Source: Exiguobacterium antarcticum DSM 14480 (lineage in GTDB: Bacteria; Bacillota; Bacilli; Exiguobacteriales; Exiguobacteriaceae). From it: a stretch of DNA of 64,000 nt. The position numbers and the translations under genes are program-made. Under the pieces are notes generated by a model. That model saw only the letters and a list, made by a program, of their open reading frames with translations, had not been told where the DNA came from and searched no databases. Location of the stretch: contig NZ_JMKS01000005.1 of NCBI RefSeq assembly GCF_000685865.1, forward strand, positions 744,001-808,000, written 5' to 3'. Shown in pieces: positions 45,712 to 64,000 of this stretch (the stretch's first letter is position 1; the number at the start of each line of letters is the position of its first letter).

Positions 45712-45721
45712 GGGGTGTAAG

Positions 45722-46529: not shown

Positions 46530-46692
46530 AACCGTATTAAGAAATACAAAAACAGAAGGAGTGAACGCAAGATGGCAACACGATTCAAAGTTAATCCTGC
46601 CTTGCGCCGTGGTTTTGAGACGGCGCGCGCTGGTGAACGACCGATGACAAAAGCAGGGACGATGAGTAAGATTTTCCTCTTACTTGCCCTCG
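46530..46692 (+). repeat. First copy of a 163-bp direct repeat
   Basis: This stretch is identical, base for base, to 63838-64000 (offset 17308) and the match runs to the window edge. It covers the last 42 bp before the Bax-inhibitor-family gene and its first 121 bp. Confidence 0.97.
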
Positions 46693-47309
46693 TCACGGCA
46701 GCAGCCGGTGGAACGTGGTTCTTCTTAGCTGCGAATCCGCAATTTTTAGTCCCCGCCTTGATTGGTGGCGTCGTCCTCGGCTTGATTCTCGCCCTGATCA
46801 TCACGTTTAAACCACGGACAGCACCGGTTCTTTCACCGGTCTACGCGATTGTCGAAGGGGTCGCCGTCGGAGCGATTTCGTTGATGTTTGAAAGCATGTA
46901 CCCAGGGTTAGTCGGGAAAGCGGTCCTCGCGACATTCGTCGTCTCGTTTGCGATGTGGTTCGTCTATTCGACGGGCATGATCAAAGTGACGCAACGGTTC
47001 CGTTCGGCCGTCACGGCTGCTATCCTGTCGATTCTCGTCCTGTACGGGGTTAACTTACTCTTGACGTTGTTCGGCATCAGCTTACCGTTCATGACGGGCA
47101 GCTCGCCGCTTGCAATCGGGATCCAGTTCGTCATCGTCATCGTCGCCTCACTCTCACTTGTGATGGACTTTGATTTCATCGCCCGACAAGTCGAGGCGCG
47201 GGCACCAAAATCGATGGAGTGGGTCGCAGCGTTCGGATTGATCGTCACGATCATCTGGCTGTACATCGAAATGCTTGATTTACTATACCGTTTGGCAGCG
47301 CGTGATTGA
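46572..47309 (+). CDS. Bax inhibitor-1/YccA family membrane protein
   Basis: This 245-residue integral membrane protein has seven hydrophobic segments after a basic cytosolic start (ATRFKVNPALRRGFE). SPVYAIVEGVAVGAISLMFE, the MIKVTQRFRSAVTAAI stretch and the C-terminal MDFDFIARQVEARAP with EWVAAFGLIVTIIWLYIEML are typical of the family, whose bacterial members include the Ca2+/H+ leak channel YetJ; this sequence is nearer the YccA-type branch. AGAAGGAG lies before the ATG at 46572. Its promoter-proximal part recurs at 63838-64000. Confidence 0.88.
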   Translation: MATRFKVNPALRRGFETARAGERPMTKAGTMSKIFLLLALVTAAAGGTWFFLAANPQFLVPALIGGVVLGLILALIITFKPRTAPVLSPVYAIVEGVAVGAISLMFESMYPGLVGKAVLATFVVSFAMWFVYSTGMIKVTQRFRSAVTAAILSILVLYGVNLLLTLFGISLPFMTGSSPLAIGIQFVIVIVASLSLVMDFDFIARQVEARAPKSMEWVAAFGLIVTIIWLYIEMLDLLYRLAARD

Positions 47310-47339
47310 TCCCGGTTGATCTGTGAGGAGTAAATATCA

Positions 47340-47729
47340 ATGAAACCACTGATTTTATTTGATGGGGACTGCAATTTGTGTGATGCCAGTGTCCAGTTCA
47401 TCCTAAAACGCGATCAAGGTTATTATGACTTTGCGTCGCTGCAAGGAACAATTGGTCAACAGATGATTCAAAAACACCGGTTGTCGACGGATTTAAATAG
47501 TGTCGTCGTGATTGAACAGGGAGTGCCGTACGTCAGATCGGATGCGGCGCTTCGGATTACCAAGCATTTAAACAGTGCTTGGCCGCTTCTGTCAGGTTTT
47601 CGATGGATGCCACGACCGTTACGAGATGTCGTGTATGATTTCATAGCCAAGCACCGGCATGAATGGTTCGGACAAAAACAGCAATGTTTGTTACCGGATC
47701 TAAAGACATGGGCACGGTTTCACGATTAA
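47340..47729 (+). CDS. DCC-family (DUF393) thiol-disulfide oxidoreductase-like protein
   Basis: This 129-residue protein opens with LILFDGDCNLCDASVQFIL, the DxLCxxC-like signature of the DUF393 family (DGDCNLC). Relatives such as B. subtilis YuxK are annotated as predicted thiol-disulfide oxidoreductases, but no reaction is proven. The rest (SDAALRITKHLNSAWPLL, RDVVYDFIAKHRHEWFG) matches the family end to end. GTGAGGAG precedes the ATG at 47340, 30 bp after the Bax-inhibitor-family gene, so they may be cotranscribed. Confidence 0.88.
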   Translation: MKPLILFDGDCNLCDASVQFILKRDQGYYDFASLQGTIGQQMIQKHRLSTDLNSVVVIEQGVPYVRSDAALRITKHLNSAWPLLSGFRWMPRPLRDVVYDFIAKHRHEWFGQKQQCLLPDLKTWARFHD

Positions 47730-47765
47730 AGTCACGGATAGAGACGTAATTAAAACCCGTTCGAT

Positions 47766-47814
47766 GAACAAAACAACAGGCAAGTCCTCCTCTCGGAAGA
47801 CTTGCCTGTTGTTC
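47766..47814. terminator. Bidirectional intrinsic terminator
   Basis: GAACAAAACAACAGGCAAGTC and GACTTGCCTGTTGTTC form a long stem between convergent genes. Confidence 0.8.
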
Positions 47815-47816
47815 GT

Positions 47817-48131
47817 TCAGCTTCTGTCCGACGATGTCTCTTTGATCGCATCGACATATTGTTTTGCTTCAAGTAATGGATACCCGAGAGTACCCCGAAC
47901 CAGTTTAATCGCTTCCACCGTCTCATGGTCAGACAGAAGTTGCTCAATCTGTTCATTCAGTAGGCTGTGACTGCTTTCGGCATCAGTCATGCCGAGATGT
48001 TCTTGAATACGTGTCAGTTCACGTAGTGTTTGCTGTTGTGTCATGCGAAGTTTTGCGAGTTGCTGGGAAACGGATTGCCAAACGATGATTAGCAGGATCA
48101 AGGGCAACCATGTGGAAAAAAATGAGTCCAT
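47817..48131 (-). CDS. Membrane-anchored protein with ribosomal L7/L12 C-terminal-like domain
   Basis: This 104-residue protein has an N-terminal membrane segment (about residues 6-22), a coiled Gln/Leu-rich linker (KLRMTQQQTLRELTRIQEHLG) and a last 30 residues (ETVEAIKLVRGTLGYPLLEA) that resemble the L7/L12 C-terminal domain, where the pattern is (K/I)IxVIKxVRxxTGLGLKEAKxxV. In L7/L12 this domain recruits translation factors; what it does when membrane-tethered is unknown. AAGGAGGG precedes the ATG at 48131. Confidence 0.7.
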   Translation of the reverse strand: MDSFFSTWLPLILLIIVWQSVSQQLAKLRMTQQQTLRELTRIQEHLGMTDAESSHSLLNEQIEQLLSDHETVEAIKLVRGTLGYPLLEAKQYVDAIKETSSDRS

Positions 48132-48262
48132 TATCAAAAACCCTCCTTTTTCTTACCGTACCACAGCATGTACTCTGTAACAATTAGTGGAAATCCTAAA
48201 GAATTCCGTTTATTCTAGGATAGTGGAAAATTAAGGGTTACATAAAGAAAGGAATGAAATTA

Positions 48263-48997
48263 GTGGAAGAACTGTTAGCTGCACTGATTCCAACATTACT
48301 TCTCATCGGAAGTATCCTAATTGTTGGATTCATCGTCACGCTCGGAAGTTTGTTTTATTTCCGGCGACGATCGTTTGAAAAAAGTACATACAAGCAAGTC
48401 ACGCAGGAAGGTTTCCTGAAAGCCGTCCGCGACAAAGGCATTTGGGGAGAATACTTGACGACGCGTCAGCTTGAAAAAGTCGAGGGCTACGGGAAGTTTG
48501 TCATGAACACCTATTTACCAAAAGTACGGGGGAAGGGTCTAACGGAAATCGATATCACGTTTATTCACGAAAGCGGCATCTACGTCTTAGAGTCGAAAAA
48601 CTACAGTGGTTGGATTTTTGGAAAAGAAGCCGACCGGCAGTGGACACAAATGTTTAAAAACCGCTACAAGCAACGGTTTTACAACCCGATCAAACAAAAC
48701 GAGCAACACCTCAAAAGCATGGAACAGTTTTTAGCCAAAACAGTGGAAGACAATGTCTTTCAATCTGTCATCGTCTTCAGTGAACGGTGTGAACTGAAAA
48801 AGATTACGATTGATTCCAGTCATGTCCACGTCATCAAACGAAACGATTTACGTCGTACGATCAAGCGGCTGGCGACAGTCAAACGTTTGACATCAATGCA
48901 AGTTGATTCGGTCTACGAGCAACTCAAACAGCAATCTCAAGTCGATCAACAGGTCAAGGACGCGCATATCGAAGCGATTAAATCGTTTTCGTCGTGA
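48263..48997 (+). CDS. Membrane-anchored NERD-domain protein
   Basis: This ~244-residue protein has an N-terminal membrane segment (about residues 8-32) and a NERD (nuclease-related) domain at about 55-170: GIWGEYLTTRQLE, LTEIDITFIHESGIYVLESKN with the PD-(D/E)xK-like D...ExK core, then RQWTQ and NPIKQNEQH. The C-terminal third is helical. NERD proteins are predicted nucleases; biological role is unclear. The GTG at 48263 is well spaced from AAAGGA, though an ATG at 48254 abuts that site and is the alternative. The next gene follows closely. Confidence 0.82.
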   Translation: MEELLAALIPTLLLIGSILIVGFIVTLGSLFYFRRRSFEKSTYKQVTQEGFLKAVRDKGIWGEYLTTRQLEKVEGYGKFVMNTYLPKVRGKGLTEIDITFIHESGIYVLESKNYSGWIFGKEADRQWTQMFKNRYKQRFYNPIKQNEQHLKSMEQFLAKTVEDNVFQSVIVFSERCELKKITIDSSHVHVIKRNDLRRTIKRLATVKRLTSMQVDSVYEQLKQQSQVDQQVKDAHIEAIKSFSS

Positions 48998-49023
48998 AAA
49001 AAATTAGAGATGGAAGTGAAATT

Positions 49024-49332
49024 ATGGCCATTCATCAAACCCCAATCGATTATATTGATATTCCTGCACCACAGCATAGTGAAGATGCTTATTATCGTGT
49101 TGTGTATGGTGATGTAGATTGGCAAGAAATTCAACAATATAACCGTGCTGTCTATGTATTGATGGGATACGGAAAAACCATTGCTTATCGTAGAGTAGCC
49201 CATATCTTGACGACTCCGAATACACCGAACGATCTATCCGATTTTGATAAAGTCATGGCTGCAATGCAACGGTTGAAAGACCGCAATGCTGTCTATAACG
49301 ACAAACGGAGAGAGAATCACTTATCCGTTTGA
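49024..49332 (+). CDS. Hypothetical protein, 102 residues
   Basis: No family is recognised. The protein is soluble with no signal or membrane segment, rich in Tyr, Asp and His in its first half (YIDIPAPQHSEDAYYRVVYG). A short central stretch, AVYVLMGYGKTIAYRRVAHI, looks amphipathic. The ATG at 49024 is preceded by TGGAAGTG. The frame also opens at a GTG at 48994 that overlaps the NERD stop, giving ten more residues. Its tight spacing to the NERD gene suggests one transcript. AT content is higher than in its neighbours. Confidence 0.55.
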   Translation: MAIHQTPIDYIDIPAPQHSEDAYYRVVYGDVDWQEIQQYNRAVYVLMGYGKTIAYRRVAHILTTPNTPNDLSDFDKVMAAMQRLKDRNAVYNDKRRENHLSV

Positions 49333-49379
49333 CAAACCACCTCATCCGGCATATAGTAAATAAGTTGAAATAATAAGTA

Positions 49380-49392
49380 GTGCAACTATTTA
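49380..49392 (+). promoter_or_regulatory. Putative MarR operator, copy 1
   Basis: GTGCAACTATTTA lies 22 bp before marR. Its exact reverse complement occurs at 49856-49868 before the next gene, so one regulator probably binds both. Confidence 0.6.
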
Positions 49393-49413
49393 TTTCGAAA
49401 GTGGGGAGTTCAA

Positions 49414-49836
49414 GTGAAAGAGGCAGATTGGTCACTTGGTATGCAACTGTCACGCAGCTATCATTCCTTCAAGCGTGCCGCGACGAAACGGATGGCAGAA
49501 CACGATCTGACACCGGAACAGTTTTCGGTTTTGAGTGAACTTCATAAGCAAGAAGGAATCTCGCAAAAGCAGTTGGCCCTGTTCACGGAACGGGATCAGA
49601 CGACGGTCGGAAAGATCCTGGATAAACTGGTGAAGAAGGAACTTGTCATCCGTTCTGCTGATCCACGGGACCGGCGGGCGTTCATCCTACTGACGACAAA
49701 AGCAGGGGCAGAGGTCATCCGAATGTTGGAACCGACGCTCGGTGAACTGCAGCAACAAGCTTTTTCCGGTCTCTCCAAAAAAGAAATCAAACATTTTATC
49801 AAAACACTTGAAACCATTCACAAAAACGTGACGTAA
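49414..49836 (+). CDS. MarR-family transcriptional regulator
   Basis: This 140-residue winged-helix repressor has the MarR layout: LTPEQFSVLSELHKQEGISQ, recognition helix region QKQLALFTERDQTTVGKILD, and the wing with DPRDRRAFILLTTKAG. No conserved redox cysteine is visible, so a small ligand rather than oxidation is the likely signal. The start is GTG at 49414 after GTGGGGAG. It sits 72 bp before the membrane protein it most likely controls, with matching operator half-sites ahead of both genes. Confidence 0.88.
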   Translation: MKEADWSLGMQLSRSYHSFKRAATKRMAEHDLTPEQFSVLSELHKQEGISQKQLALFTERDQTTVGKILDKLVKKELVIRSADPRDRRAFILLTTKAGAEVIRMLEPTLGELQQQAFSGLSKKEIKHFIKTLETIHKNVT

Positions 49837-49855
49837 GTGGTTTCTCTTTTTTAAG

Positions 49856-49868
49856 TAAATAGTTGCAC
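49856..49868 (+). promoter_or_regulatory. Putative MarR operator, copy 2
   Basis: TAAATAGTTGCAC is the exact reverse complement of 49380-49392 and lies 40 bp before the membrane-protein gene, overlapping where a promoter is expected (TATTAT at 49873). Confidence 0.6.
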
Positions 49869-49908
49869 GTGCTATTATAAGTAATGCATATAAAAAGGAG
49901 CAAAACAC

Positions 49909-50937
49909 ATGAAGACCTTTAAAGATGTTTTTTCAATCACCCAAACGAAAGTCGGGTTGATGTTTGCCTTGATCGTCCCGACTTTATTTCTCGTCGTCTG
50001 GATGACGGGGTACCAAGGGGCAACTGAGCGCCTCGACCAATTACGTGTCGCCGTCGTCAAGGAAAGTTCGACGGCCGGTTTGTATGAAAACCTGCAAAAG
50101 GAAAGTCCCTTTACCGCCAAATCCGTCTCGTCGGAAACAGAAGGGCTGAAACAACTCGATGCAGGAAAAGTCGAGATGGTCCTCGTTGCCGACTTAGCGG
50201 ATCAAAAGAAATTGACGTTCCATGTTAATCAGGCAAATGCCGAGTTCGCGAACGGCATTCTTAAACAGGCGACGTCTGAGATCAGCCAGATGTTAAATGG
50301 AAAACCCGTGATTACGTCTGACGTCATCGTCGAGCATCAAGTATCTGATTTTTCGACATCGATGTTACCGATTCTGTTGGGATTCGTCATCTACATCGCC
50401 GTCATGACGATGGGGATCCAGTTTAACCTCGTGATACAGATTCTAAAAAACCAGCATTCGAAGTGGTCGCTCTTTTGGAGTAAACAACTGTTGCACGGCA
50501 TCGTGCTTTTGGTCGTCCCGCTTGTGATGGTGTCGCTTGCCTTTGCGTTTTCTGACATCGAAGCGTCCTTTATCAAGGTATGGGCCTTCCAACTGTTGTT
50601 GACGGCAGCCTGTATCGGTGTCACCCAGATGAACTTCACGATTTTCGGTCCGATTGCGCCCCTCGTCAATGTCGCCTTGATTCCGTTTCAGTTGATGACG
50701 GCAGGAAACATCGTCCCGCCATCGATGCTGGCCCCGTTCTATCAGACAATCGGACACTATCTGCCAGTCCCGAATGCAGTCGCCGGATTGACCCGGTTGA
50801 TTTACTTTAATGGCGATATCTCGTCCTTTGTCGTCCGCCTGACGGTCATCTTGCTGATCACAGTTGCTGTTACCTTGATTCTGACTGCGCTACGCCGGGA
50901 GCAGGCCCATATCATTGAAGTAAAACAAGCATCGTAA
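49909..50937 (+). CDS. YhgE/Pip-like or ABC-2-type membrane protein (DUF3533-like)
   Basis: This 342-residue protein has one N-terminal membrane segment (about 17-34), a ~115-residue extracytoplasmic part, and five C-terminal segments (about 150-172, 195-218, 230-250, 260-282 and 305-330). That is the topology of the YhgE/Pip/SNG1 and ABC-2 export families. No ATPase is adjacent, so it may export or act as a phage- or drug-interaction protein on its own. AAAAGGAGC precedes the ATG at 49909. Expression is probably set by the adjacent MarR regulator. Family placement is approximate. Confidence 0.7.
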   Translation: MKTFKDVFSITQTKVGLMFALIVPTLFLVVWMTGYQGATERLDQLRVAVVKESSTAGLYENLQKESPFTAKSVSSETEGLKQLDAGKVEMVLVADLADQKKLTFHVNQANAEFANGILKQATSEISQMLNGKPVITSDVIVEHQVSDFSTSMLPILLGFVIYIAVMTMGIQFNLVIQILKNQHSKWSLFWSKQLLHGIVLLVVPLVMVSLAFAFSDIEASFIKVWAFQLLLTAACIGVTQMNFTIFGPIAPLVNVALIPFQLMTAGNIVPPSMLAPFYQTIGHYLPVPNAVAGLTRLIYFNGDISSFVVRLTVILLITVAVTLILTALRREQAHIIEVKQAS

Positions 50938-50945
50938 CCAAAAAC

Positions 50946-50977
50946 GAGCTCGATCCATTTGGATTGAGCTCATTTTT
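50946..50977. terminator. Bidirectional intrinsic terminator
   Basis: GAGCTCGATCC pairs with GGATTGAGCTC around ATTT, followed by ATTTTT, between convergent genes. Confidence 0.85.
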
Positions 50978-50981
50978 CATA

Positions 50982-51623
50982 TTAAGCAAAAATATCGGCA
51001 ATCGGTGTCGTTCCTTCGAGCAGGGGAATCGTTTGACGGTACGCAGATTCCTGTTCAATCGATGCAATGACGACACGAGCGACATCGACGCGTGCGATCG
51101 TCGTCTTGTCCGTTGAAGCCGGGTCTGTCGTGACGGCACCTGTTCCAGCGTCATCGGTCAAACCACCCGGACGTAAGATCGTATAGGCAAGCGAGCTGTC
51201 CCGAAGCAGACGGTCGGCATAATGTTTCGCGACATAATATGGTTTCATGCTGTCTGACCATGTTTCCGGTGAGTCGGCGTTCAAGGCACTGACCATGATG
51301 AATTGTTTCGCCTGGACTTGTTCAGCTGCTGCGATTGATTTCGCTGCTCCGTCTAAATCGATCAAAATCGTTTTATCGGCACCGGTATGTCCACCCGATC
51401 CAGCCGTGAAGATGATGACGTCACTCCCATTGATGGCATCTGTAAGGGCTGAGACGTCCTGTTCCAGGTCGAGTAGGATCGGTGTTGCGCCAAGCGCTTC
51501 GAAATCTGCGAATTGTTCGGGCGAGCGCAAGCCGACACGGACATCATGGATGGATCCACTCAATTGCTTCGCCACCTGACGACCGACTTTTCCGTTTGCT
51601 CCAATAATGAATACGTTACTCAT
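50982..51623 (-). CDS. NAD(P)-binding SDR-like oxidoreductase (YhfK-like)
   Basis: This 213-residue atypical short-chain dehydrogenase opens with FIIGANGKVGRQVAKQL, a GxxGxxG NAD(P)-binding loop. DVIIFTAGSGG, DLDGAAKSIAAAEQ, FIMVSALNADSPETW and YTILRPGGLTDD are typical of the YhfK/YwnB group, whose substrates are unknown. The usual YxxxK appears as YVAKHYADRLLRDS. GGAATGGAAG precedes the ATG at 51623; an upstream in-frame start at 51689 adds an implausible leader. Confidence 0.85.
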   Translation of the reverse strand: MSNVFIIGANGKVGRQVAKQLSGSIHDVRVGLRSPEQFADFEALGATPILLDLEQDVSALTDAINGSDVIIFTAGSGGHTGADKTILIDLDGAAKSIAAAEQVQAKQFIMVSALNADSPETWSDSMKPYYVAKHYADRLLRDSSLAYTILRPGGLTDDAGTGAVTTDPASTDKTTIARVDVARVVIASIEQESAYRQTIPLLEGTTPIADIFA

Positions 51624-51829
51624 CTTCCATTCCTCCCATTCGTTGATTCGTTCTTTACCAGTATGGAAGAAAGTAGTTGCTTCCTGCAATCAAGAGGGCT
51701 TGACAATTGGACATGAAAGGTAAGAACTGCCGAAATAATCAAAAAACTCTTGGATAAGATAAAAGAATATGATACTGTTTTGAGTATTATACAGAAAACA
51801 GCGTGAGACAGAGAGAGGATGCGAGTGGA

Positions 51830-52636
51830 GTGAATAAACGACAAGGATTGGCGCTTGGTGGAGGACTGTTGCTTTCGAGCCTGCTCGCAGTGACGAAGCT
51901 GAAGGATTTGCCGGATACGCTTGGAGTCAGTAAACAAAACGTCTTCACGACGAAGAAGATCGTTGTCGGGACGACGGGTGATTATAAACCGTTTACGTAC
52001 TTGAACCGTCAGACGAATGAGTACGAAGGATTCGATATTGAAGTCATCCGCTCGTTCGCGAAGACGGCCGGACTTGAAGTCGAGTTCGTCCCGACGACCT
52101 GGGCGACATTGACACGTGACTTACGGGCAGGGCGGTTCCATATGGTCGTCGGTGGCGTCACGAAAAACATCGAACGCGAAATCGTCGGCGACTTCACGAA
52201 AAGTTACTTGTCGTTCCAAAAAACGCCGCTCGTCCGTTTAGAAGACAAACACCGTCTGACCTCAATCGAAACGATCAATCGTCCGGATGTGACGATTGGC
52301 TTGAATCCGGGCGGGACAAATGAACAATTCGTCCGGCAGACGTTTGATCAGGCGAATATCGTCATGTATGCGGACAATCTTACCATCCCGGCAGCTGTTG
52401 CGACGGGGGAGGTCGATGTCATGATCACCGATACCGTCGAAGCGATTTATTATGCGTCTTTGGACACGCGGTTAGGTGCTCCGAAGATTAGTGAAAAGTG
52501 GATTCCAGCCGAAAAAAGTTATCTCGTCCAGGATCGTCAAACGGAAGTGATCGATGTGATGAACCTCTGGATGAATTCATATGAAGGAAGCGAACGTATT
52601 CAAGAATTAAAAGAAAAATGGAAGGTTGCGTCGTGA
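51830..52636 (+). CDS. Solute-binding-fold protein resembling cyclohexadienyl dehydratase (PheC)
   Basis: This ~268-residue protein has a membrane-targeting N-terminus (about residues 8-24) and a type II periplasmic-binding fold. Compared from memory with Pseudomonas PheC, it keeps VGTTGDYKPFTYL, EFVPTTWATLTRDL, MVVGGVTKNIER, LNPGGTNEQFVRQTF, DNLTIPAAVATGEVDVMITD. PheC makes phenylpyruvate from prephenate outside the cytoplasm; the likeness makes catalysis possible, but it could be an amino-acid binding protein. No permease or ATPase lies beside it. The GTG at 51830 overlaps the TGA of a four-codon frame (ATG at 51818). Confidence 0.75.
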   Translation: MNKRQGLALGGGLLLSSLLAVTKLKDLPDTLGVSKQNVFTTKKIVVGTTGDYKPFTYLNRQTNEYEGFDIEVIRSFAKTAGLEVEFVPTTWATLTRDLRAGRFHMVVGGVTKNIEREIVGDFTKSYLSFQKTPLVRLEDKHRLTSIETINRPDVTIGLNPGGTNEQFVRQTFDQANIVMYADNLTIPAAVATGEVDVMITDTVEAIYYASLDTRLGAPKISEKWIPAEKSYLVQDRQTEVIDVMNLWMNSYEGSERIQELKEKWKVAS

Positions 52637-52662
52637 CCGATGTCTCTAACCTAGTATGAGCC

Positions 52663-52695
52663 GAGCGAATCCGAAAGTGGGTTTGCTCTTTTTTT
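52663..52695 (+). terminator. Intrinsic terminator
   Basis: GAGCGAATCC pairs with GGGTTTGCTC (with G-T pairs), followed by TTTTTTT. Confidence 0.7.
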
Positions 52696-52777
52696 GTACA
52701 AATGTCTAAAAAGGGGTAAAGGTAATGTAGTCGCTTAAGTATCGAACCGATCTCTCTAGCAGAAAGGAAGGGTGACC

Positions 52778-53695
52778 GTGATCCAGGTAGAGCAGTTGAC
52801 GAAGGAATACAACGGGAAAAAAGTCGTGGATCAGATTTCGTTTCAGGTGAAAAAAGGTGAGATTTTTGCCTTTTTAGGGCCAAACGGTGCCGGGAAGTCG
52901 ACGATGGTTCAGATGTTGACGACCTTGATTTCTGTTTCGTCCGGTCACGCGACGATTAATGAGTATGACATACAACGGGATCAAAAAAATGTCCGTCTCC
53001 AAATCGGTGTCGCGCTGCAGGAGACGGGCATCGACAATGATTTAACCGGACGAGAATTGCTTGTCCTGCAAGGGAAATTATTTGGGTTTTCGCAAGCCAA
53101 GGCGACGACTCGGGCAACCGAACTGTTGGAATTGGTCGGGTTATCAAACGACGGCAATCGTCGAGCCGGTAAGTATTCCGGCGGGATGAAACGGCGTCTT
53201 GATTTGGCGTTGACGCTTGTCCATCAACCGGCTGTCCTCTTTTTGGACGAACCGACGACGGGACTTGACCCGGCGAGCCGGCAACAAATCTGGACGGAGG
53301 TCCGGCGCTTGAACGAAGAATACGGGACGACGATTTTTTTGACGACACAATACTTGGAAGAAGCCGATCAGTTGGCAGACCGGATTGCGATCATCAATGA
53401 AGGGAAATTGATTGCCGAAGGGACGGCGACGGAACTGAAGGCGATGAATGGGGCAGAACGGATTGAGGTCGTGCTCGAAGACGACCGAGCGACGGAAGCG
53501 TTTAGACAGGCGTTTGCCGGACGACTCGAAAAAGGAATGATTCTGCTTCCGTCAGAGGGGACGGAAACGCTGAAACAAGTTGTCCGTTACCTGGATGAAC
53601 ATCAGTTGACGGCACGCTCGCTCGTCGTCAAGCAACCGTCGCTCGACGATGTCTTCATCCAACTGACCGGTCAAGCCTATAAGGAGGAGAAGTGA
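52778..53695 (+). CDS. ABC-2 exporter ATP-binding protein (DrrA-like)
   Basis: This 305-residue ATPase of the DrrA/daunorubicin type has Walker A GPNGAGKST, QETGIDNDLTGRELL, signature YSGGMKRRLDLAL, Walker B VLFLDEPTTGLDP and the stretch LTTQYLEEAD where Gln replaces the usual switch His, as in DrrA proteins. A ~90-residue C-terminal domain ends in PSLDDVFIQLTG, the DrrA C-terminal mark. The GTG at 52778 fits AAGGAAGG better than the GTG at 52772. It pairs with the permease one base downstream; cargo is unknown. Confidence 0.9.
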   Translation: MIQVEQLTKEYNGKKVVDQISFQVKKGEIFAFLGPNGAGKSTMVQMLTTLISVSSGHATINEYDIQRDQKNVRLQIGVALQETGIDNDLTGRELLVLQGKLFGFSQAKATTRATELLELVGLSNDGNRRAGKYSGGMKRRLDLALTLVHQPAVLFLDEPTTGLDPASRQQIWTEVRRLNEEYGTTIFLTTQYLEEADQLADRIAIINEGKLIAEGTATELKAMNGAERIEVVLEDDRATEAFRQAFAGRLEKGMILLPSEGTETLKQVVRYLDEHQLTARSLVVKQPSLDDVFIQLTGQAYKEEK

Positions 53696-53696
53696 G

Positions 53697-54464: not shown

Positions 54465-54465
54465 A

Positions 54466-54509: not shown

Positions 54510-54510
54510 C

Positions 54511-55427: not shown

Positions 55428-55438
55428 CAAAACTTGAA

Positions 55439-56181: not shown

Positions 56182-56217
56182 AAAAAAAGAACCAACGTCA
56201 GCAAAAGACGTTGGTTC
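56182..56217 (-). terminator. Intrinsic terminator of the antiporter gene
   Basis: On the minus strand GAACCAACGTC pairs perfectly with GACGTTGGTTC, followed by TTTTTTT, 20 bp past the stop at 56237. Confidence 0.88.
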
Positions 56218-56236
56218 ATTGTCGTAGAAAGATCAG

Positions 56237-57559
56237 TTACAAGACCATCGCAGCAATCGTACCAAAGACGAGTAACGGCAGATTGTAGTGCAGGAACGTC
56301 GGGATGACGGTCTCACGCATGTGATCGTGTTGGCCGTCTGCATTCAGTCCGCTGGTCGGACCGAGTGTCGAATCCGATGCCGGACTACCAGCGTCACCGA
56401 GTGCACCAGCTGTTCCGATGATGGCGATCGTCGCTTCTAAACTGAATCCGTATTGGATACAAAGTGGGACGAAGATCGCGGCGATGACAGGGACGGTCGA
56501 GAAACTTGAACCGATGCCCATCGTGACGAGCAAACCAATCAACAGCATGACGAAGGCCGCAACGAGTTGCGAGTCCCCCATCAAGGATTTCGAATTCTCG
56601 ACGAGCGGGTTGATGTCGCCCGTTTTCCGGAGGACGTTTGAGAAACCGTTCGCGGAAATCATGACGAAACCGATGAACGACATCATCCGCATGCCGCGGG
56701 TAATGACGTCGTCCGCTTCACTGAATCGCACGAGTCGGAGGACGAGGAATAAAACAAGACCGGTCGTCGCAGCAATGATCATCGATTCTGTCGTCAACTG
56801 GACAGCCAGTGTCGCAAGGACGACAAGCCCGCTGAGGAATAACTTCGTTTTCGTGATGACGGGAATCTCGTAATCGTCCGGTGCGATATTGCGCATTTCA
56901 TACTCGCGCGGTTTCCGGTAATTATAGAGACCGATCAACAGTCCGATGAGCATCCCGAGTGCCGGAATCGCCATCGCTTGGACGACGGACGCGCCAGCGA
57001 TGTCCATTCCATTTTTTTCGATGTTCGGTAACAGGATTTGATTTAAATAAATATCACCAAAACCGATCGGCAGGAACATGTACGGTGTGACAAGACCAAA
57101 TGTCATGACGATCGCCATCAGACGACGGTCAATCTTCATTTCATTAAAGAGACCGAGTAATGGCGGAATGATGATCGGAATAAAGGCGATGTGGATCGGC
57201 AAGACGTTTTGCGAGCTGATGGCGAGCAAGAGAATCGCAAAGATGATGAATCCTTTGAGCTTTTTGACGGATGTCGCATCCGCTGATCCTTTGGAACGTG
57301 TGATCAAAGCGTGCGCCAAGGCATCCGGAAGACCGGTTTTTGACAAGGCGACGGCGAATGCGCCAAGCAGGGCGTAACTAAGAGCGATTTCGGCTCCGGC
57401 GCCAAGCCCTTCGGCAAACGTTCCGATCGTCGTATTGAGACCAAGACCGCCGATCAATCCACCGGCAAGAGCACTGAGGACCATCGCGAGGACGATATGG
57501 ACGCGGAAGATGGCTAAAACAAATAATAGAACAACGGCAATAATAACGGCATTAAACAT
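56237..57559 (-). CDS. YuiF-type Na+/H+ or amino acid antiporter family protein
   Basis: This ~440-residue protein of the NhaC-like ion transporter superfamily has about 12 hydrophobic segments. GLGAGAEIALSYALLGAFAVALSKTGLPD near residue 55 and GTAGALGDAGSPASDSTLGP then TSGLNADGQHDHMRETVIP near the end are strongly diagnostic of the YuiF group, annotated as Na+/H+ antiporter family or sodium:proton-linked amino acid exporter. Substrate is unsettled. The start at 57559 (ATG) has only a weak AAGCGTGG; an upstream in-frame extension to 57589 is less protein-like. Confidence 0.85.
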   Translation of the reverse strand: MFNAVIIAVVLLFVLAIFRVHIVLAMVLSALAGGLIGGLGLNTTIGTFAEGLGAGAEIALSYALLGAFAVALSKTGLPDALAHALITRSKGSADATSVKKLKGFIIFAILLLAISSQNVLPIHIAFIPIIIPPLLGLFNEMKIDRRLMAIVMTFGLVTPYMFLPIGFGDIYLNQILLPNIEKNGMDIAGASVVQAMAIPALGMLIGLLIGLYNYRKPREYEMRNIAPDDYEIPVITKTKLFLSGLVVLATLAVQLTTESMIIAATTGLVLFLVLRLVRFSEADDVITRGMRMMSFIGFVMISANGFSNVLRKTGDINPLVENSKSLMGDSQLVAAFVMLLIGLLVTMGIGSSFSTVPVIAAIFVPLCIQYGFSLEATIAIIGTAGALGDAGSPASDSTLGPTSGLNADGQHDHMRETVIPTFLHYNLPLLVFGTIAAMVL

Positions 57560-57643
57560 AACTAAAACCACGCTTTCTTTTGGTATCACTGTACTATACT
57601 AAAGTATCATACAGACCGTTCTTTTGACTGTCAAGAAAAAAAC

Positions 57644-57689
57644 ACAAAAAAGGTAGGCCTGACGTCAGATTGAGACAGGTCCTACCTTT
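57644..57689 (-). terminator. Intrinsic terminator of the carbonic anhydrase gene
   Basis: On the minus strand AAAGGTAGG and CCTACCTTT enclose a second inner pairing (ACCTG/CAGGC), followed by TTTT. Confidence 0.75.
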
Positions 57690-57708
57690 CTTCTTCATTA
57701 AATGGTCT

Positions 57709-58260
57709 TCAGCAATCGACTTGATCGAGTTTTCCGGTCCCTGGATCGATGACGAGTCCATGGACTTCTGTTCCCGGTGGTAACAACGGATGGTTTTTGA
57801 TCAGACCAACCGAGTGGCTGACGTTTTCCTCGACCGAAGTGAAGCCGCGTAACCATTGTTTCAAGTCGACACCGGAAGCATCCAGTGTATGCAACACCTG
57901 TTCATTGATTCCACGGTCTTGCATCTCGGCAATCATCTTTGCCGGATCAATCGTGCTCATGCCGCAGTCATGATGTCCGATGACAATGACTTCCTCTGCA
58001 CCAAGTGCATACAAAGCGACGAGGATCGACCGCATGACGGAACCAAACGGATGGGACAGAACGGCCCCGGCATTTTTGATGATTTTCGCATCACCGTTTT
58101 TAAGACCAAGGGCGTGTGGAAGGAGCTCCGTCAAACGTGCATCCATACAGGTCAGAATCACAACCTTCTTATCCGGGAATTTATCCGAGATGAACTGTTC
58201 GTATTGTTTTTCTTCAACGAACTGTTGATTAAACGCAAGCATTTGATTAACGATTGACAT
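57709..58260 (-). CDS. Beta-class carbonic anhydrase (YtiB-like)
   Basis: This 183-residue zinc enzyme interconverts CO2 and bicarbonate in the cytosol. The zinc ligands and catalytic dyad are visible: VVILTCMDARLTELLP (Cys, Asp-Arg) at about residue 38 and EVIVIGHHDCGMS (His, Cys) at about residue 96. The length fits the shorter YtiB/YvdA-type beta class. AAAGGAGGAAG precedes the ATG at 58260; the frame continues to 58365 without a start signal. It is divergent from adhE. Confidence 0.92.
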   Translation of the reverse strand: MSIVNQMLAFNQQFVEEKQYEQFISDKFPDKKVVILTCMDARLTELLPHALGLKNGDAKIIKNAGAVLSHPFGSVMRSILVALYALGAEEVIVIGHHDCGMSTIDPAKMIAEMQDRGINEQVLHTLDASGVDLKQWLRGFTSVEENVSHSVGLIKNHPLLPPGTEVHGLVIDPGTGKLDQVDC

Positions 58261-58350
58261 GAAACTTCCTCCTTTAAGACAAATGAATGATGGAACTATT
58301 CCTAGCGTACACGATGAACGATTGGTCAGACAAGCAGATTCATGAATTGT

Positions 58351-58366
58351 TGTGACAGTTGTCACA
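58351..58366. promoter_or_regulatory. Rex/FNR-like palindrome 1
   Basis: TGTGACAGTTGTCACA is a perfect TGTGA-N6-TCACA palindrome preceded by T. It fits Rex (TTGTGA-N6-TCACAA) and the Bacillus Fnr/CRP-type consensus. It lies between carbonic anhydrase and adhE. Confidence 0.7.
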
Positions 58367-58414
58367 GGAGAGGGATGAAAAGACGGATCCTTGCGTCAGA
58401 ACAGGTTGTTTTAA

Positions 58415-58428
58415 TGAAAACGTTCTCA
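58415..58428 (+). promoter_or_regulatory. cre site (CcpA operator)
   Basis: TGAAAACGTTCTCA matches the cre consensus TGWAANCGNTNWCA at every position. It implies carbon catabolite control of adhE. Confidence 0.75.
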
Positions 58429-58432
58429 TTCA

Positions 58433-58448
58433 TGTGAAATAGTTCACA
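58433..58448 (+). promoter_or_regulatory. Rex-binding site 2
   Basis: TGTGAAATAGTTCACA is a perfect inverted repeat TGTGAA-ATAG-TTCACA, the core of the Rex operator, about 145 bp before adhE and adjacent to the cre site. Confidence 0.75.
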
Positions 58449-58593
58449 GGATGGTCATGCACAAATTGAGCAAAAGGCGGTATGATTGATTTGTGAAGGA
58501 AAGCACAAACTACTCGATATCAGCTTGGCATTCCTAACATGTAGTAAGGAAATGCAGACTCAGATTCGTTCCAAAATAGGGAGGAAACCTAAC

Positions 58594-61188
58594 ATGGCTG
58601 TCAAAGAAAAAATCAAACAAGATGTCTCACCTGTCGAACAAGCAATCAATCAAATCGTCGCGAAAGGTCAAACGGCGTTACAAGAACTATTAACATTTGA
58701 TCAAACGAAAATCGATGTAATCGTCCGTGACATGGCGCTTGCCGGTCTCGAACGGCACGTCGAACTCGCACGACTTGCGGTTGAAGAAACAGGACGTGGT
58801 GTCTTTGAAGATAAAATGATCAAAAACATGTTTGCGACGGAATATATCTATAACAGTCTTCGTGATGAAAAAACGGTCGGGATCTTAGAAGAAGATGTCC
58901 AAAACGGGATCACCTACATCGCGGAACCGGTCGGTGTCGTCTGTGGCGTCACACCTGTGACGAATCCGACATCAACGACGATGTTCAAAGCGTTGATTGC
59001 GATCAAAACGCGCAACCCGATCATCTTCGCCTTTCATCCGTCCGCACAAAATTGCTCACTTGAAGCGGCCAAAACGTTACGTGACGCTGCCGTTAAAGCT
59101 GGTGCCCCGCAAGATTGTATCCAGTGGGTCGAACAACCGTCTCTCGAAGCAACAAAAGTCTTGATGAACCACACCGACATCGCGATGGTTCTTGCGACGG
59201 GTGGAGCCGGCATGGTCAAATCAGCGTATTCAACCGGCAAACCGGCACTTGGTGTTGGACCAGGGAACGTACCGTGTTACATCGAAAAATCAGCAAAAAT
59301 TAAGCGGGCCGTCAGTGATTTGGTCCTCTCGAAAACATTTGATAACGGAATGATCTGTGCCTCCGAGCAAGCGGTCATCGTCGATCAAGAGATTTATGCA
59401 GAAGTGCGGGCAGAGATGGAAGCGCTCGGTTGCTACTTCTGTACAGCAGACGAGAAAAAACGTCTTGAAGCACTTGTCATCAAAACCGACACATGTGCCG
59501 TCAATGCGGACATCGTCGGGAAACCGGCAACATGGATCGCAGCGAAAGCGGGCATCGAAGTCCCGAGCAATACGGTCATGCTCGTCGCCGAACTCGAAAA
59601 AGTCGGCACCGAAGAACCGCTCTCACATGAAAAGCTAAGTCCCGTCCTTGGTGCCTATAGCGTCCAATCAACAGAAGACGCCTTCCACGTCGCCGAACGG
59701 ATGCTTGAAATCGGTGGTCTCGGTCACACGGCGGTCATCCACACGACGAACGATGACTTGATGACAGCGTTCGGACTCCGGATGAAAGCCTGCCGAATCC
59801 TTGTCAACAGCCCGTCAGCACACGGTGGGATTGGTGACTTGTATAACGAATTGACTCCATCGCTGACACTTGGTTGCGGATCATACGGGAAAAACTCGGT
59901 CTCTGAAAACGTAACGGCGAAACATCTACTCAATATCAAGAAGGTGGCGAGACGACGCGTGAACATGCAGTGGTTCAAAGTACCGGAAAAGATTTTCTTT
60001 GAAAAAAACTCGGTTCAATACTTGAAATCAATTCAAAACGTCTCACGGGCCTTGATCGTCACTGATCAATCGATGGTCGAATTCGGTTACGCCGATAAAG
60101 TCATCCGAAACTTACCAGCAGGTGTCAGCTACCGGATTTTCGACCAAGTCGAACCTGACCCGTCAGTCACGACGGTCGAAATCGGGGCACAAGCGATGCG
60201 GGACTTCCAACCCGACTTAATCATCGCCCTTGGTGGGGGATCTGCGATGGATGCAGCGAAAGGCATGTGGCTGTTCTATGAGCAACCAAATGAGAAGTTC
60301 TCAAACTTACGTCAAAAATTCCTCGATATCCGGAAACGTGCTTATAAATTCCCGGAACTCGGAAACAAAGCGAAGTTCGTCGCGATTCCGACGACGTCAG
60401 GAACAGGTTCTGAAGTCACACCGTTCACGGTCATCACGGATAAAGAGAAAAACGTCAAATATCCGATTGCTGACTATGCATTGACACCAGACATCGCGAT
60501 CATCGATCCAGAATTCGTCATGACGGTGCCCGCTTCAATCACAGCTGATACAGGAATGGACGTCTTGACGCATGCGACAGAAGCGTTCGTCTCAGTCCTT
60601 GCGAACGACTATACGGACGGACTGGCATTAAAAGCAATCAAGATGATCTTCGACTACTTGCCACGCGCTTACGATAACGGTTCAGACGCGGAAGCACGCG
60701 AAAAAGTTCACAATGCGTCAACGATGGCAGGGATGGCGTTTGCCAATGCCTTCCTCGGCATCAACCACTCAATCGCGCACAAAATCGGTGGGGAGTTCCA
60801 CACACCACACGGTCGGACAAATGCGATTCTGATGCCGCACGTCATCCGCTACAATGCAGCGAAACCAACGAAACTTGCTTCATTCCCGAAATATGAATCA
60901 TTCATCGCGGATGAACGATATGCGGAAATCGCCCGTTACCTCGGTCTGCCGGCAGCAACGACGGAACAAGGTGTCGAATCACTCATCCAAGCGATCACAG
61001 AACTCGGACAACGCCTCAACATCAAGATGTCGTTTAAAGCCCAAGGCATCAAAAAAGCGGACTTCGAAGCGAAACTCGACAAGATGGCAGTCGATGCGTT
61101 TGAAGATCAATGTACAACAGCGAATCCGAAAATGCCGCTCGTGACGGAACTCCGTCAGATCATGGAACTCGCCTACGAAGGCATCTAA
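58594..61188 (+). CDS. adhE: Bifunctional acetaldehyde-CoA/alcohol dehydrogenase
   Basis: This 864-residue fermentative enzyme reduces acetyl-CoA to ethanol, regenerating NAD+. The N-terminal aldehyde dehydrogenase half (1 to ~440) has GVTPVTNPTST, TGGAGMVKSAYSTGKPALG and the acyl-thioester Cys in NGMICASEQAV. The C-terminal iron alcohol dehydrogenase half (~450-864) has ALGGGSAMDAAKGMW, TTSGTGSEVTPF and metal ligands in GMDVLTHATEAF and GINHSIAHKIGGEFHTPHG. AGGGAGGAAACC precedes the ATG at 58594. Rex and cre sites upstream predict induction when NADH builds up. Confidence 0.95.
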   Translation: MAVKEKIKQDVSPVEQAINQIVAKGQTALQELLTFDQTKIDVIVRDMALAGLERHVELARLAVEETGRGVFEDKMIKNMFATEYIYNSLRDEKTVGILEEDVQNGITYIAEPVGVVCGVTPVTNPTSTTMFKALIAIKTRNPIIFAFHPSAQNCSLEAAKTLRDAAVKAGAPQDCIQWVEQPSLEATKVLMNHTDIAMVLATGGAGMVKSAYSTGKPALGVGPGNVPCYIEKSAKIKRAVSDLVLSKTFDNGMICASEQAVIVDQEIYAEVRAEMEALGCYFCTADEKKRLEALVIKTDTCAVNADIVGKPATWIAAKAGIEVPSNTVMLVAELEKVGTEEPLSHEKLSPVLGAYSVQSTEDAFHVAERMLEIGGLGHTAVIHTTNDDLMTAFGLRMKACRILVNSPSAHGGIGDLYNELTPSLTLGCGSYGKNSVSENVTAKHLLNIKKVARRRVNMQWFKVPEKIFFEKNSVQYLKSIQNVSRALIVTDQSMVEFGYADKVIRNLPAGVSYRIFDQVEPDPSVTTVEIGAQAMRDFQPDLIIALGGGSAMDAAKGMWLFYEQPNEKFSNLRQKFLDIRKRAYKFPELGNKAKFVAIPTTSGTGSEVTPFTVITDKEKNVKYPIADYALTPDIAIIDPEFVMTVPASITADTGMDVLTHATEAFVSVLANDYTDGLALKAIKMIFDYLPRAYDNGSDAEAREKVHNASTMAGMAFANAFLGINHSIAHKIGGEFHTPHGRTNAILMPHVIRYNAAKPTKLASFPKYESFIADERYAEIARYLGLPAATTEQGVESLIQAITELGQRLNIKMSFKAQGIKKADFEAKLDKMAVDAFEDQCTTANPKMPLVTELRQIMELAYEGI

Positions 61189-61219
61189 TAGAGAGAAAAA
61201 CATCATGGCAATTCAAAAG

Positions 61220-61253
61220 AGCCTTGCTTCCGGTCGACGGAGGCAAGGCTTTC
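61220..61253 (+). terminator. Intrinsic terminator of adhE
   Basis: AGCCTTGCTTCCG pairs with CGGAGGCAAGGCT (one mismatch), followed by TTC. Confidence 0.8.
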
Positions 61254-61283
61254 GTGTGTTCATAATCGTGAAGTCGCGTTCAC

Positions 61284-61442
61284 TCATTTGTTAATCACAA
61301 TGGATAATTGATAGTTCACATGCACATTTAAATCAACTAAAAACGAATCCAATTCTTTGTTAGATGGAAAGCGACATTCGAGCAGGTAACAACTGTCCCC
61401 ACTGATTTTATAATTATTCAGAACTGGATGGTCTACAGTTAG
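61284..61442 (-). pseudogene. 3' remnant of an Lrp/AsnC-family regulator, cut by an IS
   Basis: On the minus strand the last ~52 codons of an Lrp/AsnC ligand-binding domain can be read: VDHPVLNNYKISGDSCYLL, then ECRFPSNKELDSFLVDL and QLSIVINK before TGA at 61284. The YxISGxxxYLL pattern and a final strand SIVI are typical of the family's C-terminal RAM domain. The frame ends at the left end of the IS3-type element at about 61443, and the DNA-binding half is not found on the other side of that element. The gene is therefore broken. Confidence 0.75.
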
Positions 61443-61508
61443 TTGGACATAAACCTTAAGGTCAATTAGACTTAGGAAAATTATGAACAGCAGAGGAGAA
61501 TCACCTTC

Positions 61509-61793
61509 ATGAATAAACGGGAACGAAGAATTTTTAGCGATTCATTCAAACAACAGATGGTTCAACTCCATTTGAATGGGAAGTCACGCGCCGATATCAT
61601 TCGGGAATATGACTTGACGCCTTCGGCATTTAATCGCTGGATCAACCAAAGTAAGACGACCGGATCTTTTAAGGAAGAAGATAATTTGTCAGATGAAGCG
61701 CGTGAGCTACGTGTGCTTCGGAAGCATGTCCAACAACTCGAGATGGAGAATGATATTTTAAAGCAAGCCGCGCTGATCATGGGACGAAAGTAA
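61509..61793 (+). CDS. IS3-family transposase OrfA
   Basis: This 94-residue subunit has an HTH_Tnp_1 domain (FSDSFKQQMVQLHLNGKSRA, IIREYDLTPSAFNRWINQ) and a C-terminal leucine-zipper coil (ELRVLRKHVQQLEMENDILK). The coil end holds the in-phase slippery heptamer T_TTA_AAG at 61757-61763, allowing -1 shift into orfB. GCAGAGGAGAA precedes the ATG at 61509. Confidence 0.9.
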   Translation: MNKRERRIFSDSFKQQMVQLHLNGKSRADIIREYDLTPSAFNRWINQSKTTGSFKEEDNLSDEARELRVLRKHVQQLEMENDILKQAALIMGRK

Positions 61794-62629
61794 GTGTGAT
61801 CAAGAATAATCGACATAAATACTCGGTATCAGCAATGTGCAGCGTCCTCCAATTACCCAGAAGTACGTTTTATTATGAAGCGAGACAGCGACCATCGGTC
61901 GACGATGTGACGGAAGCCATCCGTGAAATTTTCCGGCGCAGCCGAGAGAACTACGGCACGCGTAAAATCAAGATTGAACTCCAAAAACAAGGGAAATGCG
62001 TCTCTCGTCGCCGAATCGGACGCATCATGAAAGACCAAGGGCTCGTCTCTACGTACACGCTCGCGCAATTCAAGCCTAAAAAAGAAGCGTGCAACGAGTC
62101 GATGGAAGCCAATGAATTGAATCGCGCGTTCAAGCAAGGAGAAGAGCTATCCGTTGTCGTCAGTGACCTGACATACATCAAGGTCCGTCAAAAATGGCAT
62201 TATGTATGTGTATTTGTTGATTTCTTTAACCGAGAAATCATCGGTCACAGTGTGGGCGAGCGAAAGGATGCGCAACTGGTCCATCGTGCTTTCGCTTCCA
62301 TTCCTCATGATTTGCGTCGTATCCGGATGTTTCACACGGATCGAGGACGAGAGTTCAACAACCATCTGATTGAGGATGCCCTTCATACGTTCGGAATCCG
62401 TCGCTCGTTGAGCAAAAAGGGTTGTCCGTACGATAACGCAGTCGCGGAAGCCACGTTTAAAATCATCAAGACAGAGTTTGTCAAAAAACGAGTGTTCTCG
62501 AGTTTGACGGAGCTGGAACGCGAGTTCCAGGATTACGTGAATTGGTTCAACCACCTTCGCATACACGGTACATTGGATTATCAAAGCCCCGTTCGCTACA
62601 AACAATCACTCCTTAAGAAGATTGTCTAG
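61760..62629 (+). CDS. IS3-family transposase OrfB (via -1 frameshift or GTG 61796)
   Basis: After slippage at 61757-61763 the frame reads on to 62629. It has an HTH_21 region (SRENYGTRKIKIELQKQG) and an rve core with Asp in VVSDLTYIKVRQ, Asp in FHTDRGREFNN and Glu in DNAVAEATFKIIKTE. A GTG at 61796, three bases after the orfA stop, could start a separate 277-residue OrfB. The frame is undamaged, so the element may still be active. Confidence 0.88.
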   Translation, partial: KASRADHGTKVSVIKNNRHKYSVSAMCSVLQLPRSTFYYEARQRPSVDDVTEAIREIFRRSRENYGTRKIKIELQKQGKCVSRRRIGRIMKDQGLVSTYTLAQFKPKKEACNESMEANELNRAFKQGEELSVVVSDLTYIKVRQKWHYVCVFVDFFNREIIGHSVGERKDAQLVHRAFASIPHDLRRIRMFHTDRGREFNNHLIEDALHTFGIRRSLSKKGCPYDNAVAEATFKIIKTEFVKKRVFSSLTELEREFQDYVNWFNHLRIHGTLDYQSPVRYKQSLLKKIV

Positions 62630-62642
62630 TTTAGTGTTGACA

Positions 62643-62841
62643 ATCCATCTCCTACAATGATTATTATTTTTATGACTTCACGAGTTCTCAAAGAAAGCAC
62701 ACAGCACTTCATGAAATGGGACATGCTCTTGGATTAGATCATCACGGACTTGCTGGAAACGTGTTGAGATCTGGCTTTTACAGTTATGAAGTTTTAGGTT
62801 CGCACGATAAGTCAGATTATCGAACTCTTTGGGGCTATTAA
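62643..62841 (+). pseudogene. 3' remnant of a metzincin (M10/M57-like) metalloprotease
   Basis: Immediately right of the IS a frame reads SISYNDYYFYDFTSSQRKHT, then ALHEMGHALGLDHH and ends RTLWGY before TAA at 62839. HEMGHALGLDH is a complete HExxHxxGxxH zinc motif of metzincins. About 66 residues remain; signal peptide, propeptide and most of the fold are missing, and there is no ribosome site or start codon in place. It is the tail of a secreted protease gene whose front was lost on or before IS insertion. Confidence 0.75.
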
Positions 62842-62863
62842 TCCAATATAAGGAGCGTTAACT

Positions 62864-63456
62864 ATGAAAAAATTCTTAATAGGTTCAGTAGCAGCAGTTA
62901 TTGGCCTGACTGTTTATGGATTTGATCATTACCAATCAGAAAAGAAGCCGGTCAAAATTGTTAATGCATATTTAAATGAAGTGGCTGATTTTTCTGATGA
63001 TCGAATTTTAGTTGGTGCTGCTCAAAATGTGTTTGTTGGAGAAGTCATTCAAGAAGTTGGGAGTAAACGACTTGATGGAACGCCGGAAACACAGTATTCG
63101 GTAAAAGTGAACAAAAATTTAAAGGGCAAGTTAAAAGGAGAAGTCATTGTTAATCAGTTTGGTGGATATGATAAAGATTCGGAAGGAAATAGCGTCTTGA
63201 TTTTATATAATGAAGATGAGATGTTAAAAAAGGTCATCAATACATGTTCGCTACACGTTATTTAGAATCTGAGGACTGGCATACTGCAATTACTAACCAA
63301 GGTACGGTAGAACTTAAGAATGCTGAAGAAGAAAGCACTTCAGTTGGAAAGATCGTGAGTGCTTTAAAATCACCTATTGTTCCGGAAGCCATGAAAAATA
63401 AAGAAAAGTACAATAATCGGAAAAAAGACGATAAATCAAAATTAGATCAGGAATGA
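62864..63456 (+). pseudogene. Secreted protein of unknown function, broken by a frameshift
   Basis: Two frames join into one ~197-residue protein. The first (62864-63265) has a signal-type start (MKKFLIGSVAAVIGLTVYGF) and a domain with YSVKVNKNLKGKLKGEVIVNQ. At an A6G run (63226-63232) the frame breaks; one base earlier in phase the sequence continues HQYMFATRYLESEDWHTAI to 63456. The run is in phase as A_AAA_AAG, so -1 slippage could restore the full product, but a one-base deletion is simpler. No family is recognised. AAGGAGCG precedes the ATG. Confidence 0.7.
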
Positions 63457-63466
63457 TTAAAAAAGT

Positions 63467-63495
63467 AGGGACTTCTTTAATTGAAAGAAGTCCCT
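63467..63495 (+). terminator. Hairpin after the frameshifted gene
   Basis: AGGGACTTCTTT pairs with AAAGAAGTCCCT. No long T-run follows, but the next hairpin comes 10 bp later. Confidence 0.6.
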
Positions 63496-63505
63496 CAGAT
63501 TATAG

Positions 63506-63541
63506 ACAAACCCTCATTTCAATTACGAAATGAGGGTTTGT
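63506..63541. terminator. Perfect 15-bp hairpin
   Basis: ACAAACCCTCATTTC pairs perfectly with GAAATGAGGGTTTGT around six bases. It may be a bidirectional terminator or a repeat remnant. Confidence 0.6.
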
Positions 63542-63837
63542 TGTATGTATCGGTCATTAAAACGTTCAAGGTGCTTTTATTAAACTATCCAAACTCAAGG
63601 GCTCAGTTTATATTAAGAATATCTTTCATGTTTTTTAGAACAGATTCATCATATGTTATACAGACACAAAAGTAGAAAATGATTGATGTATTGAACCGCA
63701 CAAGCCTGCATTCCTTTTTTGCATTACACAAGTGTCCGCACTATTCCGATCAATCAGTTTAATAAGATACGTTCATTCGATTTAATATATTTTGAAGTAG
63801 AATCAAGCTTAGGATCTATACATACATTTAAAGTAAT
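63542..63837. other. AT-rich region, no gene seen
   Basis: About 300 bp of AT-rich sequence unlike the codon-biased DNA on either side. A frame at 63719 runs through the repeat junction into the antisense phase of the duplicated gene; it looks like decayed DNA rather than a gene. It stops sharply at the repeat boundary at 63837. Confidence 0.55.
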
Positions 63838-64000
63838 AACCGTATTAAGAAATACAAAAACAGAAGGAGTGAACGCAAGATGGCAACACGATTCAAAGTT
63901 AATCCTGCCTTGCGCCGTGGTTTTGAGACGGCGCGCGCTGGTGAACGACCGATGACAAAAGCAGGGACGATGAGTAAGATTTTCCTCTTACTTGCCCTCG
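63838..64000 (+). repeat. Second copy of the 163-bp direct repeat, running off the window
   Basis: Every base from 63838 to the window edge equals 46530-46692. The sequence left of 63838 is unrelated to that left of 46530, so the boundary is sharp. True length is unknown because the window ends. Confidence 0.97.
63880..64000 (+). CDS. Bax inhibitor-1/YccA family protein, second copy, 5' part
   Basis: The first 40 codons (ATG at 63880 behind AGAAGGAG) are identical in DNA to those of the gene at 46572-47309. The window ends before it can be seen whether the copy is complete. Identity at silent positions too means a very recent duplication or an assembly effect. Confidence 0.8.
   Translation, partial: MATRFKVNPALRRGFETARAGERPMTKAGTMSKIFLLLAL

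Follow-up and report, generated by a model that had tools for sequence, protein, structure and literature searches.

At its right end the window, that is, the whole 64,000-nucleotide stretch of Exiguobacterium antarcticum DSM 14480 analysed here (bases 744001-808000 of contig C5), falls back onto sequence it already contains, and the question is whether the chromosome carries a block twice in tandem, whether part of a gene was copied, or whether the assembly looped. The genome assembly comprises 3,219,480 bases in 7 contigs, and C5 totals 815,985 bases. As pointed out in the preliminary description, positions 63838-64000 repeat 46530-46692 without a difference (163/163 bases), and the repeat has a sharp left boundary: the leftward extension is 0, with a mismatch at the first base before it. 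That description also called for the sequence beyond 64000 to be read. The copy persisted there for 8,148 bases from the joint, up to the contig end at 815985, and these bases aligned to 46530-54603 of the window with 98.3% identity to copy 1 (BLAST). Pairwise alignment of this C5 tail with copy 1 gave 140 differing positions per 8,074 reference bases, the first of them at 50300. The C5 end had no match of at least 200 bases in the first 12 kb of C5, so that overlapping ends of a circular contig were rejected as the source of the repeat.

The right end of the block led to a second contig. The 138 bases that precede the joint 63837|46530 recur near the end of contig C1, where bases 123515-130319 (minus strand) correspond to window positions 57042-63837, and C1 afterwards departs into other sequence. 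Position 63837 has two continuations in the assembly, one back to 46530 and the other on into C1 (from 123514 downward), and two contig ends lie within one block (Table 1). Together the C5 and C1 ends cover 14,870 of the 17,308 block bases; 54604-57041 (2,438 bases) is present in neither.

Table 1. Features of the putatively duplicated block, its edges and its genes (window positions).
Feature	Position	Strand	Basis
Copy 1 of the putatively duplicated block (17,308 bp), from the Bax-inhibitor gene through the plasmid-like tail	46530..63837	+	Repeats in C5 tail; right part 57042-63837 at C1 end
Start of presumed copy 2, running past the window to the C5 end	63838..64000	+	163/163 identity to 46530-46692
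New head-to-tail joint in the assembly, 0 bp microhomology	63837..63838	.	Window self-comparison, contig-end alignment
Ancestral left edge of block	46529..46530	.	Single edge-spanning match in 18/18 same-genus genomes; aligned in 6 relatives
Bax inhibitor 1-like protein (BaxI_1)	46572..47309	+	Pfam
DCC1-like thiol-disulfide oxidoreductase	47340..47729	+	Pfam
NERD-domain protein	48254..48997	+	Pfam
MarR-family regulator	49414..49836	+	Pfam
ABC-2 family membrane protein	49909..50937	+	Pfam
NAD(P)H-binding (NAD_binding_10) protein	50982..51689	-	Pfam
Family 3 solute-binding protein	51803..52636	+	Pfam
ABC transporter ATPase (52772-53695) and ABC-2 type membrane protein (53697-54464)	52772..54464	+	Pfam
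289-aa protein without Pfam family	54511..55380	-	Pfam scan
VTT-domain membrane protein	55439..56041	-	Pfam
Na+/H+ antiporter family protein	56237..57589	-	Pfam
Carbonic anhydrase (Pro_CA)	57709..58365	-	Pfam
Aldehyde plus iron alcohol dehydrogenase, presumably AdhE-like	58486..61188	+	Aldedh + Fe-ADH domains
IS3-family insertion sequence (boundaries approximate)	61425..62648	+	Pfam; plasmid-record matches
Plasmid-like segment extending into C1	62649..63837	+	E. acetylicum plasmid and G011 contig C2 matches

The Pfam scan covered 17 of the larger proteins of the block; two of them were IS3-type transposase proteins and two had no family. The dehydrogenase with Aldedh and Fe-ADH domains is referred to here as AdhE-like. 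For the IS3 element, query positions 1-1223/1224 matched plasmid records, several of them annotated as IS3 family transposase, and the DNA that follows (~62646-63470) matched a plasmid of Exiguobacterium acetylicum at 95.3% identity.

We looked at which of the three junctions are old. With the left edge as query (45900-47300, at most 9 candidate places being scored per genome), a single edge-spanning match was obtained in each of 18/18 same-genus genomes, with identities of 70-93%; G001 held an additional match of 32 bases, and a second long match (774 bases) was present in the own genome only. None of the 18 genomes showed the duplication, within the 9 places at most scored in each and bearing in mind that repeats can go unseen in a draft assembly. 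For the 6 sister-genus genomes searched, sequence from either side of the left edge matched at separate places, meaning that the antiquity of this neighbourhood is demonstrated within the genus only. On the right side, the AdhE-like gene is followed by the genes of the C1 end, at a distance of ~0.1 to 4.1 kb, in all 8 relatives read (of the 18), in which the block shows lineage-specific gaps and inserts of up to ~12 kb. The insert of the own genome between the AdhE-like gene and the C1 genes consists of the IS3-family element and then of plasmid-like DNA that runs across 63837 into C1, and contig C2 of the relative G011 is contiguous across this same point (395/401 bases; 96.6% over 2,493 bp). 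The matches of the DNA adjacent to 63837 to that contig and to the E. acetylicum plasmid had raised the suspicion that C1 is a free plasmid. For the C1 end this was rejected, since its genes follow the AdhE-like gene in 8/8 relatives read; C1 was judged from its two ends. The left edge intact in 18/18 genomes, the AdhE-C1 order in 8/8 and the contiguity in G011 together indicate that 46529|46530 and 63837|C1 are old and that 63837|46530 is new. The assembly thus holds a new joint that links the right end of the block to its left end in the same orientation, between two outer edges that are both ancestral. As read from these alignments, old outer edges with a new inner joint are the signature of a 17,308-bp head-to-tail duplication.

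A joint of this kind could also be produced by the assembly, and we thus compared the differences along the contig ends. These were counted by pairwise alignment; MAFFT spread the indels into false mismatch blocks. The C5 tail matched copy 1 exactly for 3,775 bases right of the joint. From 50300 onwards it showed 6 mismatches, 30 deletions and 104 insertions, with a peak of 5.4% per 500 bases at 52030-53029 and 2.0-4.4% thereafter, the last 143 bases being exact. The C1 end behaved in a similar way: the 4,139 bases adjoining 63837 were exact, and farther out 1 mismatch, 14 deletions and 23 insertions were found, never above 2.2% per 500 bases; the outermost 330 bases were again free of differences. 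The switch from exact to error-rich sequence is therefore located at a similar distance from 63837 in both ends; the C1 end is tied to sequence confirmed in a relative (G011), and the C5 end behaves alike. Insertion-rich errors fit raw single-molecule reads. Except for their exact outermost bases, both ends look like a consensus that worsens as fewer anchored reads reach it. The error rate does not climb steadily, and the exact outermost ends (143 bases in C5, 330 in C1) are left unexplained by a simple thinning of reads.

As a control we used contig C7, a false inverted contig that is a foldback of C3:1379529-1389730. Its differences from C3 were densest where the false joint lies, with 12 in 193 and 26 in 312 bases against 16 in 500 for the next highest bin, and its first two bins (999 bases) were clean. 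By a yardstick that is our own and unpublished, with C7 as its single control, a chimeric joint should carry errors at and around it, whereas the sequence after 63837 is exact for 3,775 bases. The end of C3 and the start of C5 overlap by 9.7 kb in a dovetail that was left unmerged; of its 53 differences, 46 fall within the first 2 kb or the last 2.7 kb. A comparison of 13 contig-end stretches of up to 20 kb, taken from all 7 contigs, detected no further overlap of at least 200 bases between contigs.

Three other explanations were weighed against a duplication. One or a few chimeric reads might have joined 63837 to 46530 while the true chromosome runs from 63837 into C1. Such an origin would agree with a copy that extends to the contig end, with a joint of 0 bp homology and with the presence of at least one false contig (C7) in the assembly, and chimeric reads, to which the excerpt of PMC12870357 attributes ~70% of the split reads found in long-read data from genomic DNA, can arise repeatedly at the same position. 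A joint made from one or two reads should nevertheless be error-rich at once, instead of being followed by 3,775 exact bases. Correction by copy-1 reads could account for the exact last 143 bases of the C5 tail, but acting throughout it would have left 50300-54460 clean, and this stretch has errors. The peak of differences at the false joint of C7 (a single control, with two clean bins at the C7 start) and the like distance from 63837 at which the C5 and C1 ends turn error-rich argue in the same direction. Since the C7 foldback and the unmerged C3/C5 overlap show that artefacts do occur in this assembly, we keep the chimera as an unlikely but not negligible explanation.

The joint might instead exist in part of the culture, either as a duplication in a minority of the cells or as a 17.3-kb circle that was excised and coexists with an intact chromosome; either state would produce this joint and both paths from 63837. 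The assembler took the path to 46530 with an exact consensus over the path into C1, which suggests comparable read support for the two, and the recombinase-like proteins among the 17 scanned are the IS3 pair only; we thus consider a subpopulation or a circle very improbable. As for a copy made elsewhere of just the 5' end of the Bax-inhibitor gene, an option put forward in the preliminary description and compatible with the 163 bases visible within the window, it is refuted by the 8,074 block bases that the copy spans beyond the joint and is practically impossible. Of the three readings proposed in that description, the evidence most favours the head-to-tail duplication of 17,308 bp; the copy of the 5' end drops out, and both the error profile and the C7 control speak against the assembly loop.

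We therefore regard a real tandem duplication of 17,308 bp, in two or more copies that separate C5 from C1, as the likely state of the chromosome. The order would be ...46529|[46530-63837][46530-63837]| and then C1 from 123514 downward, with the joint present in the cell and copy 2 complete. A repeat longer than the useful read length would make the assembler halt inside it from both sides: C5 would stop 8.1 kb into copy 2, and the last 6.8 kb of the block would be retained in C1.

How the joint arose was approached through its sequence. When the left edge (46529/46530) was compared with the continuation of 63837 into C1, no matching base was found next to the joint on either side; the few shared bases supposed earlier at the breakpoint come down to none (0 bp of microhomology). 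The longest word shared by the block ends within 100 bp had 9 bases and was out of register, and BLAST of the stretch against itself gave no other direct repeats (E 1e-5). With 0 bp at the joint and a 9-base word out of register, a repeat-mediated duplication was rejected. No IS lies between the copies either: 63837 is joined directly to 46530 and the IS ends at ~62648. Since neither edge carries an IS, an IS-mediated duplication was also rejected. The proposal that IS-scarred DNA next to the junction supports a rearrangement is accordingly weakened: an IS3 element is indeed present inside the block, but it is ~1.2 kb off the joint, and in the own genome it matches only this locus and the overlapping C1 end. 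The joint was probably formed by illegitimate (homology-free) end joining or by template switching.

Other features were recorded around the edges. A near-palindrome (46517-46528) stops just left of the left breakpoint and is unchanged in six aligned relatives. The search for a new promoter at the joint gave one promoter-like site in 63500-64000, inside the gene and identical in place to that of copy 1; shuffled sequences gave 1.6 such sites for 63500-64000 and 0.3 for the copy-1 stretch, and we make no claim from these numbers. Rfam gave 0 matches at the gathering score in 61400-64000.

With a duplicated block, the dosage of at least 14 ordinary genes would be expected to double, and a benefit from this dosage is possible. 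Long direct copies can be lost, or can give rise to further gain, via homologous recombination. A more specific scenario, possible but doubtful, is that of a recent and perhaps adaptive amplification, free of homology and IS, of a block with Na+/H+ antiporter, carbonic anhydrase, AdhE-like and exporter genes, which might be present in more than two copies and be unstable in culture, the copy-2 Bax-inhibitor gene then lying behind plasmid-derived DNA.

Should the duplication prove real, the gene counts and copy numbers that the assembly yields are incorrect, a second copy has to be placed between C5 and C1 to link them, and the disrupted reading frames close to these two contig ends probably reflect consensus errors rather than pseudogenes. 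The locus would also exemplify how a tandem duplication that exceeds the reads looks in a draft genome, with two contig ends inside one block. Its value lies mainly in the correction of the assembly, since it is an ordinary case of a known type of event.

Duplications of this kind are biologically ordinary and already known. A literature search on tandem duplication in Exiguobacterium, judged by title, found nothing on the subject. Tandem duplications are described as rare in Escherichia coli mutation-accumulation lines in the excerpt of PMC10292909. The chimeric and foldback artefacts of long reads, as the excerpt of PMC12870357 presents them, resemble our locus by an abrupt joint near a contig end, but here the block is direct and not inverted, and 3,775 bases are exact past the joint. 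In the IS-associated amplifications outlined in the excerpt of PMC13423834, an IS lies between the copies, and flanked, hemi-flanked and unflanked types are distinguished; the unflanked type is like the present block in that the duplicated segment retains both ancestral edges, whereas here the joint has no IS and the IS3 element is internal. Close counterparts come from Bordetella pertussis: tandem amplifications that span 15-197 kb, including one of 16 kb with a copy number of ~4, whose assemblies could not be resolved by sequence data alone (PMC8942028, in the part available). Although the organism is another one, and the Exiguobacterium block is known from consensus sequence and has a joint without repeats or IS, the two cases share a multi-gene block in head-to-tail arrangement, the size range and an unresolved assembly.

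The two contig ends that stop inside the duplicated block (window 46530-63837) each carry an error-rich stretch, and in both cases the outermost bases match exactly again: 143 bases at the tail of contig C5 (815843-815985) and 330 bases at the end of contig C1 (129990-130319). Elsewhere in this assembly (G000), the end of C3 (locus L014) and the start of C5 (locus L015) share an unmerged dovetail overlap of 9.7 kb at 99.45%; these contigs are probably neighbours. Contig C7 (14,145 bp; locus L113) is an inverted, foldback artefact derived from C3 around 1379529-1389730 and should be removed from the assembly.

Features within and beside the duplicated block
Feature	Window position	Family or extent
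Aminoglycoside 3-N-acetyltransferase family gene	45650-46513	Pfam Antibiotic_NAT
IS3-family element and plasmid-like DNA	61425-63837	continues into C1, to about L010:7755
Strong hairpin	63494-63549	
Diverged copy of a multi-copy element's end	63697-63731	

The acetyltransferase gene adjoins the block on its outer side. Near the joint, where the sequence resumes at 46530, the RNA fold of 63485-63570 gave -27.2 kcal/mol (z -5.0). The sequence left of the hairpin is common to six other loci in the same genome, and the sequence right of the hairpin differs among them; by this pattern the hairpin resembles the end of a multi-copy element, and stretches similar to this region are present in many genomes of the genus. 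The feature at 63697-63731, which is a diverged copy of another multi-copy element's end, lies some 107 bp short of the joint. Five loci have in common the 100 bases on its left, with divergence directly after it.

The IS3-family element and plasmid-like DNA are inserted to the right of the AdhE-like gene. At the same place, the eight relatives read have stretches of 0.1-4.1 kb without a match.
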